Of a DNA stretch of 64,000 nucleotides, positions 41,692 through 63,769 are shown in pieces. The position numbers were made by a program, and so were the translations under genes. How positions within the stretch are numbered: position 1 is the first letter of the stretch; every line of letters begins with the position of its first letter. This stretch comes from Gracilibacillus caseinilyticus (GTDB lineage Bacteria; Bacillota; Bacilli; Bacillales; Amphibacillaceae). Under the pieces are notes generated by a model. That model was not told the origin of the DNA and did not search any database. It worked only from the letters and a program-made list of their open reading frames with translations. The stretch lies in contig NZ_CP095072.1 of NCBI RefSeq assembly GCF_022919115.1, positions 2,914,001-2,978,000 on the forward strand, given 5' to 3'.

Positions 41692-42255
41692 ATGTCAGAA
41701 CGAACAAAGGTATATCAGCAAGTTTTAACCGAAATTCAACGTCTTATTAGAGAAGACGGTTATCTGCCAGGAGATAAATTACCTTCGGAACGTCAGCTGT
41801 CTGTACAGTTAGATGCAGCAAGGTCGTCCGTTCGAGAAGCGTTACGTGCTATCGAATTGTTAGGCATCATTGATACGAGACAAGGCGAAGGAACCTATCT
41901 CCGAAATTACCAGACCTATCAAGCTGTTGGATTGTTAGCTTCTTTCGTATTGCAGGATTCACAGACCCAATCGGAATTGGCGGAAGCTAAGCAAGTATTA
42001 GAAGATCATGTCATTTCATCGATGACAGCGACAGATCAGCAGATCGAGCAATTAACTGGAATTATCAATGATCCTGCCTTAACAAATGAAGAGAAGCATC
42101 ATCGTTTTTTTTCTGTCTTTTTTGAAGCATATGGAAACCAGCTTTTGTTAAAGATATGGAGATTGATGGAAGATTTTTCACTGAACATCAAATCAGACGT
42201 TCAGTTGGATCCATATTACAAGGGTATTATGAAACATATACAGGATAACAGGTAG
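41692..42255 (+). CDS. GntR-family (FadR-subfamily) regulator upstream of accDA
   Basis: 187 residues. N-terminal winged helix (about 8-72: DGYLPGDKLPSERQLSVQLDAARSSVREALRAIELLGII, EGTYLR). The C-terminal helical effector domain is short: FadR-like proteins are usually about 230 residues, and the His/Asp metal ligands of the FCD domain are not evident. It probably senses a small acid or acyl compound. An autoregulatory operator lies in its leader. The gap to accD is 58 bp with no terminator, so it probably controls acetyl-CoA carboxylase expression as well as its own. Confidence 0.88.
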   Translation: MSERTKVYQQVLTEIQRLIREDGYLPGDKLPSERQLSVQLDAARSSVREALRAIELLGIIDTRQGEGTYLRNYQTYQAVGLLASFVLQDSQTQSELAEAKQVLEDHVISSMTATDQQIEQLTGIINDPALTNEEKHHRFFSVFFEAYGNQLLLKIWRLMEDFSLNIKSDVQLDPYYKGIMKHIQDNR

Positions 42256-62370: not shown

Positions 62371-62970
62371 TTGATCATTGGATTAACAGGGAATATTGCT
62401 ACAGGAAAATCAACCATCAGCGAGATGTTTTTAAACCATTATCATATTCCGGTAATTGACGCCGATATCGTTTCCAGAGAAGTGGTAGAACCTGGCGAAC
62501 AAGCACTACTGGAAATAACCAAAGTATTTGGCTCTGATATATTGCTTGAAGATGGGCGTTTAAATCGCGCAGAGCTCGGAAATATTATATTTAAAGAGAA
62601 AGAAAAGAGGCAAATGCTAAATGAGATCGTTCATCCAGCTGTTAGACAGCGAATGCTACATAAGAAGGACAAGCTCTATAGCGAAGGTTATCAGACCATT
62701 GTGATGGACATTCCTCTTCTTTTCGAAAACAACTTAACCTATTTAACAGATAGAAATATTGTCGTATATACGATAGAAGCTATCCAGTTGAAGCGATTAA
62801 TGAAACGAAATCAGTTAACAGAAGAACAAGCAAAAGATCGAATGAAAAGTCAAATGGATATCAATCAAAAAAAACAGCTGGCAGATGCTGTTATTGACAA
62901 TAGCGGCTCTATAGAAGCGTCTCATCAACAGCTAGAAGTTATCCTGAAAGAATGGGAATTATTAAAGTAG
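62371..62970 (+). CDS. coaE: Dephospho-CoA kinase
   Basis: 199 residues. P-loop G-N-I-A-T-G-K-S-T at 7-15 (often G-G-I-A-S-G-K-S in relatives), IPVIDADIVSREVVEPG near 30, VMDIPLLFENN near 110 and a C-terminal IDNSGSIEASHQQL. Last step of coenzyme A synthesis. The start is TTG 62371 after AAAGGGTG. A small GC-rich hairpin (GCCGC/GCGGC near 62311-62323) lies just before it. Confidence 0.95.
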   Translation: MIIGLTGNIATGKSTISEMFLNHYHIPVIDADIVSREVVEPGEQALLEITKVFGSDILLEDGRLNRAELGNIIFKEKEKRQMLNEIVHPAVRQRMLHKKDKLYSEGYQTIVMDIPLLFENNLTYLTDRNIVVYTIEAIQLKRLMKRNQLTEEQAKDRMKSQMDINQKKQLADAVIDNSGSIEASHQQLEVILKEWELLK

Positions 62971-63004
62971 TTTTGTAAAAAATAAGAAAGCATTTATTTT
63001 TGTC

Positions 63005-63033
63005 TTGCTAAAATCGACAAAAGTAGATATAAT
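63005..63033 (+). promoter_or_regulatory. Candidate promoter of speD
   Basis: TTGCTA (63005-63010), 17-bp spacer, TATAAT (63028-63033). Predicts a leader of about 175 nt before speD. Confidence 0.65.
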
Positions 63034-63059
63034 CTTTTTGCACAAGTTTTCTAGATAAG

Positions 63060-63172
63060 ATTTGTCAGGGTATGTTAAGCTTGTACAAAAGACTTTTGAA
63101 TAATGACAAATGATTAATGCTTAAAGGGTTAGGACCTCTTTGGACTAACTTTCCCCCGTGGCATTTAAGCAT
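63060..63172 (+). ncRNA. Structured leader RNA of speD, riboswitch-like candidate
   Basis: Two consecutive closed domains. Domain 1: perfect 8-bp helix ATTTGTCA (63060-63067) / TGACAAAT (63104-63111). Domain 2: perfect 9-bp helix ATGCTTAAA (63117-63125) / TTTAAGCAT (63164-63172), enclosing GTTAG (63128-63132) / CTAAC (63145-63149) with a CC/GG extension at its tip. The UCCCCC at 63152-63157 can close this inner hairpin against GG 63126-63127, or pair perfectly with GGGGGA at 63202-63207, the speD ribosome-binding site. Not matched to any riboswitch class I know. Confidence 0.6.
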
Positions 63173-63215
63173 AATTATTTAAAAGAATCTGTTGAAATGA
63201 AGGGGGATTAAATGC

Positions 63216-63593
63216 ATGGATACAATGGGAAGACACGTAATTGCAGAATTATGGGAATGTAATATTGATTTATTAAATGATATGGAGACTTTGGAAAGAA
63301 CGTTTGTCAATGCTGCACTTAAAGCAGGGGCTGAAGTGAGAGAAGTCGCTTTTCATAAATTTGCACCATTTGGAGTAAGTGGTGTTGTCATCATCTCAGA
63401 ATCACATTTGACTATTCACAGCTTTCCTGAGCACGGTTATGCTAGTATTGATGTCTACACTTGCGGGAACATTATTGACCCAAATGTAGCAGTAGCGTAT
63501 ATCGAAGAACAATTAGAGGCGAAGTCATCGGAAAAAATTGAGGTGCCTAGAGGTATGGGTGCCGTTCAAATTAAAAATATAAAAGCACAATAG
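63216..63593 (+). CDS. speD: S-adenosylmethionine decarboxylase proenzyme
   Basis: 125 residues, the short bacterial class. Self-cleavage between Glu62 and Ser63 makes the pyruvoyl group from Ser63; His68 and Cys83 complete the active site, with the same numbering as the Thermotoga/Bacillus enzymes. Makes decarboxylated SAM, the aminopropyl donor for spermidine. The ATG at 63216 is 8 nt after AGGGGG. Long structured leader upstream; terminator downstream, so monocistronic. Its natural partner in this window is the aminopropyltransferase at 31.7 kb. Confidence 0.96.
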
Positions 63594-63622
63594 GCGATGG
63601 GAAAGAAGAATGGAAGTTAAAG

Positions 63623-63679
63623 AAAAAACCGAACGAAAATCGAATGTTTACTATCACATTCGACTCCGTTCGGTTTTTT
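63623..63679 (+). terminator. Two-step terminator of speD
   Basis: Outer stem AAAAAACCGAACG (63623-63635) / CGTTCGGTTTTTT (63667-63679) encloses a second stem CGAATGT (63641-63647) / ACATTCG (63656-63662); T run follows. Confidence 0.88.
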
Positions 63680-63769
63680 CTTTTTCGGTTTCCATAAACG
63701 GCGAATTATCTGAGTAATGCTTATTTAAAAATGTATCAAATCGAGTGCTTATTCCATTCAACGCTCCGA

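Follow-up and report, generated by a model that had tools for sequence, protein, structure and literature searches.

SpeD, S-adenosylmethionine decarboxylase, is a key polyamine enzyme and supplies the aminopropyl donor from which spermidine is made. For its regulation in Gram-positive bacteria we found no account beyond a rare riboswitch, a variant of SAM-I, in the accessible part of PMC10853860. The locus at the end of the window (the whole stretch of 64 000 nucleotides from Gracilibacillus caseinilyticus that was analysed) raises the question of whether the RNA in front of speD is a switch acting on translation of the gene, and which signal such a switch would answer. The initial annotation of this DNA had proposed a structured cis-acting leader whose C-tract has one pairing partner close by and a second in the speD ribosome-binding site. 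That proposal holds up, with a different set of conserved helices.

The speD leader of the window

The gene next upstream (Table 1) we take to be coaE, a name that comes from gene order and sequence. The promoter is one of four sites found in a scan of the region, against 2.9 by chance, and the other genomes of the genus that carry the leader also show a matching promoter. Transcription is expected to start near 63040, and the leader length of about 175 nt in the initial annotation fits this promoter. A transcription attenuator was ruled out, an intrinsic terminator being absent from the leader: a terminator scan of 62900-63720 returned zero terminator-like sites on its + strand. Behind speD, the same scan scored a terminator-like site on the - strand (63667-63636). 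It belongs to an inverted repeat (63624-63681) with A-rich and T-rich ends, of which only the - strand reading scored and which is probably a two-way terminator.

Table 1. Features of the speD locus, in coordinates of the window
Feature	Position	Strand	Evidence or remark
coaE	62371-62970		upstream neighbour of leader and speD at the window's end
sigma-A-type promoter TTGCTA-17-TATAAT	63005..63033	+	consensus scan, 10/12, 17-bp spacer
speD leader (predicted 5′ untranslated region)	63041..63215	+	promoter to start codon
outer helix, 5′ strand CUUUUGAAUAAU	63093..63104	+	12 pairs (one G-U) with 63174-63185
P1, 5′ strand AAUGC	63116..63120	+	5-bp pairing with 63161-63165
P2, 5′ strand GGGUUAG	63126..63132	+	alignments; compensatory changes in distant families
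apical loop GACCUCUUUGGA	63133..63144	+	alignment A1; ends conserved, middle variable
P2, 3′ strand CUAACUU	63145..63151	+	alignments; pairs with 63126-63132
anti-ribosome-binding-site tract UCCCCC	63152..63157	+	conserved in 84 leaders
P1, 3′ strand GCAUU	63161..63165	+	covariation in A1 and A4 alignments
outer helix, 3′ strand AUUAUUUAAAAG	63174..63185	+	16 nt before ribosome-binding site
speD ribosome-binding site GGGGGA	63202..63207	+	GGGGG at most 22 nt before start in 84/84 leader-bearing loci
speD, S-adenosylmethionine decarboxylase proenzyme, 125 aa	63216..63593	+	ORF; Pfam PF02675, E = 7.8e-38

The conserved core of the leader reads CUUAAAGGGUUAGGACCUCnnnGGACUAACUUUCCCCCGUGG. We compared leaders in two alignments, A1 of 84 close leaders (73 distinct rows) and A4 of 70 leaders from many families (69 distinct rows); counts across leaders are inflated by kinship. 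Among the 84 leaders, 14 of the 42 core columns (63120-63161) are invariant and 24 nearly invariant. Four C's of the UCCCCC tract are invariant, and its fifth C and its U are kept at 90% or more. The apical loop may hold a tandem G.A/A.G, with G.A in 71 and A.G in 70 of the 73 distinct rows of A1.

Folding of single sequences was ordinary (z = -0.83 for the leader and -0.32 for the core); stability therefore proves nothing, and significance comes from comparison. The minimum-energy fold of the window leader, at -36.3 kcal/mol, covers the ribosome-binding site and includes an 8-bp helix (63060-63067/63104-63111). The best fold with the site kept free has -31.5 kcal/mol and consists of P1, the outer helix, four P2 pairs and GGG on the C-tract, while a free-site fold with full P2, which also contains P1 and the outer helix, has -31.1 kcal/mol. 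Such nested folding is blind to a pseudoknot in which P1 and the outer helix coexist with pairing of tract and site. Base 63104 belongs both to the 8-bp helix and to the outer helix, whose 5′ strand would be trapped in the loop of the 8-bp helix.

This 8-bp helix was one of the two that closed the domains drawn in the initial annotation. It is perfect and part of the minimum-energy fold, but lies in a 5′ half whose length differs widely within the genus. The second, of 9 bp, is a perfect match in the window (63117-63125/63164-63172) but is not conserved: 39.8% of cells are paired against 40.5% in shuffles, and 401 of 500 shuffles pair as well. Since relatives pair no better than shuffles, it was ruled out as a conserved element. 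The two domains thus have to be redrawn, the 9-bp helix being confined to this sequence and the helix that is conserved, P1, being a 5-bp pairing with another 3′ strand.

Distribution and a second form of the leader

SpeD is encoded in all 17 genomes of the window's genus, and the core precedes speD in 14 of them (L001-L014). In the other three (L015-L017) the leader is absent, speD lies close behind the preceding gene and the site has no GGGGG. A scan of named genomes confirmed at least 582 loci among 595 stretches, and the best 80 of these at least 582 loci all have the core, with local scores of 45 to 78 of 78. Because the best 80 are those most closely related to the query protein, a wider sample of the class, 398 genomes, was drawn and searched with model R1, built from the 84 leaders, at a cut-off of E up to 0.01.

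R1 matched 195 of the 398 genomes. The SpeD domain AdoMet_dc is found in 292 genomes of the sample, 193 of which have an R1 match; of the two matches outside these, one (G549, E = 0.0095) is probably a chance match and the other (G550) lies at a contig end. At the level of the order, 246 of 299 genomes matched. There is nearly always one match per genome; G344 has two. SpeD was found downstream on the same strand at 69 of the 69 R1 loci examined (L099-L167). It was also found at 59 of 59 further loci (L210-L268) with element-like letters no more than 200 nt upstream, where the element was placed by a loose pattern and some genomes are already counted elsewhere.

We read the DNA upstream of speD in 23 speD-bearing genomes, all but one R1-negative, and many of these carry a leader of the form UAGGAACCAGGAUUCACU ... 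AGUGAAUGRCGUAGGUCCUAGCGA ... GCUAGGAAGGGGG. A second model, R2, was built from 32 second-form and intermediate leaders, none from the window's order, and matched 69 of the 79 genomes with a canonical SpeD and no R1 match. Left out here were 20 of the 99 R1-negative SpeD genomes: 17 had a weak AdoMet_dc only and three, read by eye, had no leader. At least one of the ten misses of R2 is not a true absence, since a variant leader (L182) can be made out by eye in G334. Counting both forms, a leader is found in 262 of the 292 SpeD-bearing genomes of the class sample. The two forms are related, because R2 recovers the window's own leader (63107-63218, E = 3.2e-5) and several of the loci L138-L167 combine features of both.

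Some loci are unusual. The leader of L148 (G330; - strand, near 1498-1618), which seems to link both forms, has about 49 nt inserted in its P2 apical loop. Four genomes (G373, G429, G459 and G609) have two R2-type leaders each; G373 has a leader of the CCCCC type (L185) and another of the CUCCUC type (L195), both followed by an AdoMet_dc gene, from which we conclude that leader and gene were duplicated together. At three distant loci (L179, L186 and L189) speD has an RNase P RNA gene as a neighbour at a distance of about 1 kb or less.

Over 199 genomes of the phylum R2 matched nine, five of which belong to the window's class. Outside the class, one match (G757, locus L202) is a real leader with SpeD downstream; L207-L209 have no convincing SpeD and were taken for chance. 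Viral contigs, searched with one exact 16-letter pattern, gave three matches; speD is adjacent to none of them, and the remainder of the core is missing from all three. The leader is dispensable, as speD occurs with no detected leader in the three genomes of the genus and in others of the class. It is conserved before other speD genes, one of the points on which the initial annotation had made its proposal depend, and we regard a conserved structured leader before speD as practically certain.

Helices, tract and ribosome-binding site

In A1, P1 is paired in 85.5% of cells. A structure of P1, P2 and an AAA/UUU pairing has 71 double-change cells there against 19.5 in shuffles, a value reached by none of 500; counted by pairs, four have a double change against 3.0 in shuffles, and 139 of 500 reach this. 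In A4, with P1 91.2% paired, P1 and P2 have 99 double-change cells against 27.9 in shuffles (0/500), slid versions of the structure giving at most 30, and seven pairs with a double change against 4.3. RNAalifold found zero covarying pairs in the 84 leaders and left P1 out of its fold. P2 is silent in the close set because it is nearly invariant there. In distant families one P2 pair changes from U-A to G-C in six rows, with four rows unpaired, and the next pair from A-U to G-U in 25; the first G-U pair, the next one outward, becomes G-C in 18 of 67. The AAA/UUU pairing beyond P2 (A1 columns 17-19 with 51-53), whose letters are nearly invariant in A1, was rejected: distant sequences put C opposite G at its first 3′ place, so a G-U extension of P2 fits better. 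Covariation, which the initial annotation had proposed to test, is present in P1 and P2, but the 9-bp helix it named is not conserved; the CCCCC and GGGGG, its other candidate pair, are invariant in the 84 close leaders and cannot covary there.

For the outer helix we swapped flanks among the 75 leaders, of 84, that have distinct 3′ flanks. Pairing with the leader's own flank has a mean of -14.7 kcal/mol, against -11.65 kcal/mol with swapped flanks, and none of 5000 permutations did as well.

The second form adds a further pair of helices. R2 gave 103 matches in 96 loci; after nine short opposite-strand pieces were dropped, 94 were complete and 83 distinct. In this distant set a central strand, GGUCCUAGC, has two partners, one at the 5′ end (helix P0) and one in the strand before the ribosome-binding site (helix P3). 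P0 is paired in 72 to 82 of 82 leaders at its four outer pairs, and P3 in 82 of 82 at four pairs and in 79 and 56 of 82 at its last two. One place inside P0 is A.G in 66 leaders and U-A in 16. A register of P0 with a bulged A (ACC/GGU) was discarded, failing in 16 of 83, while the unbulged register is paired either side of the A.G or U-A in 82 of 83. P0 and P3 share bases and are hence mutually exclusive, and both are kept in the 83 distinct distant leaders. L202, a locus from outside the class, has another central strand, with changes in both partners that match it. Taken together, P1, P3 and the inner pairs of P0 show double changes at six pairs, where shuffles give 0.6, with only eight cells in all (90 distinct rows, short pieces included).

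The UCCCCC tract and the GGGGGA of the speD site can form six perfect base pairs, as the initial annotation had it, and part of the tract has an alternative local partner in GGG 63126-63128, on the 5′ strand of P2. A GGGGG site is found at 84 of 84 leader-bearing speD loci, but at only two of the window's 50 long ORFs, namely speD itself and a gene for a GntR-family regulator (41692-42252). The site of the latter gene is AGGGGGA, and by eye the C-tract leader is absent from the 240 nt upstream of it. A second speD copy with no leader, L175, has six G's in its site and is a counter-example.

In the distant set the tract varies. It is CUCCUC in 12 of the 83, CCCCC in 57 and of other types in 14 (CCCUCG type in 11, CCCC in three), all 14 with an AAGGGGG site. 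GAGGGG is found in 11 of the 12 sites that follow CUCCUC, the twelfth (L194) offering AAGGAG to CCUCCUC, and in two of the 57 that follow CCCCC (Fisher p = 5e-10, kinship uncorrected). The duplex energy of CUCCUC is -13.7 with its own sites and -9.5 with CCCCC-type sites; that of CCCCC is -12.7 with its own and -14.0 with CUCCUC-type sites. CCCCC thus pairs no less well with the other type of site than with its own, and the constraint between tract and site therefore shows from one side only. In the types read by eye, a purine tract able to hold the pyrimidine tract locally lies upstream. Judged from this arrangement, the leader very likely acts through the ribosome-binding site.

Proposed mode of action and candidate signals

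Comparison and folding agree on mutually exclusive pairings that cover or free the ribosome-binding site, and a conserved 5′-leader RNA with covarying helices is what a translational riboswitch would present. That translation is the step controlled, that the leader switches, which state the signal favours and what the signal is we infer from this anatomy. In the on state, the pyrimidine tract (63153-63157) would be held locally by purines at the base of P2, leaving the site free; in the off state it would pair with GGGGG 63202-63206 and cover the site. The choice would most likely be set by a small molecule of this metabolic branch, and the simplest signal would be feedback by the SpeD product, decarboxylated SAM, or by the spermidine made from it.

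The whole is best explained, with moderate confidence, by a cis-acting RNA switch that sets speD translation, a small molecule choosing its state. That the leader senses a small molecule at all we also hold to be rather probable, and product feedback is a plausible reading that we place somewhat short of probable. The leader, real and widespread and by its anatomy translational, is probably a new riboswitch class, and one of the SAM/decarboxylated SAM/spermidine branch. A fuller version of this reading can be offered tentatively: the class might be a general feedback sensor of decarboxylated SAM or spermidine before speD in Bacillus and relatives, with a double strand-exchange (P0 or P3; local purines or site) and an apical module kept in some families and lost or replaced in others.

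A protein may act in place of the small molecule, SpeD itself or another RNA-binding protein binding the core and setting access to the site. We consider this unlikely: to our knowledge SpeD has no RNA-binding role, and the competition of P0 with P3 and the tract with two partners resemble ligand-driven switches. On its side are the very conserved letters of the core, the usual presence of one element per genome before one gene, which is the pattern expected of autogenous control, and the co-purification with Hfq of RNA from the speD leader region of B. subtilis (PMC3574147). Table 2 of that study, as far as its text was accessible, lists a 79-nt peak between speD and gapB as 'Unknown or speD leader region', with an RPKM ratio of 14.1 with Hfq; a footnote states that earlier work had suggested a leader there, and the authors note that structured leaders may co-purify with Hfq unspecifically. 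The peak is probably from the same transcript region as the present leader, but in the accessible text it is a table entry with no motif, structure or function.

The small-molecule switch could also run in the opposite sense, sensing SAM, the substrate, and opening the speD site when SAM is plentiful. SpeD consumes SAM, and the fold with the site free is compatible with P1 and the outer helix, so that a ligand stabilising this fold would turn translation on. SAM riboswitches, however, usually also precede metK or methionine genes, and the examined loci precede speD only; the Rfam SAM riboswitch families gave no match either. A substrate-driven on-switch is in our estimate quite unlikely.

We see little chance that the leader is structured but passive, an RNA thermometer, a target site of a trans-acting small RNA or a stability element with no dedicated signal. 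Pairing of tract and site alone would lower translation constantly or by temperature, but a thermometer would have no need of a core kept nearly invariant across many families, or of two competing helices that are both conserved.

A translated leader peptide in the frame LKGLGPLWTNFPPW, stalling the ribosome as for polyamine genes elsewhere, is scarcely credible: in the window this frame runs open through the core, several Bacillus leaders end the frame at TAG/TAA right after a tryptophan codon and three of the five core lengths other than 42 differ by a multiple of three, but the other two (43 and 41) break the frame, 49 of 81 scorable leaders lack an in-frame start codon (ATG in only 10), the mean entropies by codon position (0.205, 0.147 and 0.239) show no concentration of variation at the third and P1 covaries. 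The coding reading of the core, with control of the SpeFL type, was accordingly disfavoured on start codons and substitution pattern despite some signs for it.

Relation to known systems, and significance

The initial annotation had found no match with SAM, preQ1, guanidine or other classes, and no Rfam 15 family matches the leader. A covariance-model search of the whole window against Rfam 15, SAM classes included, gave zero matches at gathering score, and 62960-63240 gave five matches with E from 0.3 to 5.3, all far below the gathering scores. At 20 distant loci the families found were RNase P RNA and tRNA, both of them outside the leader and with no others beside them, and the L184 leader had zero matches at E up to 5.

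One close likeness is with the SAM-III (SMK box) riboswitch before metK of lactic acid bacteria, a compact RNA with an upstream tract that pairs directly with the ribosome-binding site. The two are alike in translational control by pairing of site and tract and in metabolic neighbourhood, and differ in gene, sequence and hosts, the speD leader having no Rfam match. The SpeFL leader peptide of enterobacteria is likewise a leader control of a polyamine gene, but it is peptide-based, and a coding reading of the speD leader fails. In the accessible text of PMC8632094, the odc1 motif with its short upstream reading frame also controls polyamine genes from a leader, again through a peptide, unlike the speD leader.

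The spermidine riboswitch is described, in the part of PMC10853860 open to us, as a close variant of SAM-I, an off-switch of narrow distribution that is found in several genera of Gram-positive bacteria upstream of polyamine genes, speD, speE and speB among them. Its aptamer is SAM-I-like, whereas no Rfam family matches the speD leader, which stands before speD at every locus examined; judged indirectly, through the Rfam SAM families, the leader is a different RNA. We found no earlier description of this element in a literature that was mostly open-access text, so an earlier account is possible. By term search, 'speD' is absent from four candidate-riboswitch papers, and 'speD expression', 'speD mRNA', 'feedback' and 'transcription of speD' are absent from the accessible part of PMC5519356.

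Among the best 80 named loci, the core is present in B. sonorensis and B. paralicheniformis. Both species are relatives of B. subtilis, and the question can therefore be tested in a standard host. If the ligand is decarboxylated SAM, it would be a metabolite with no riboswitch known to us. If the ligand is spermidine, the sensor would be far more widespread than the known variant.
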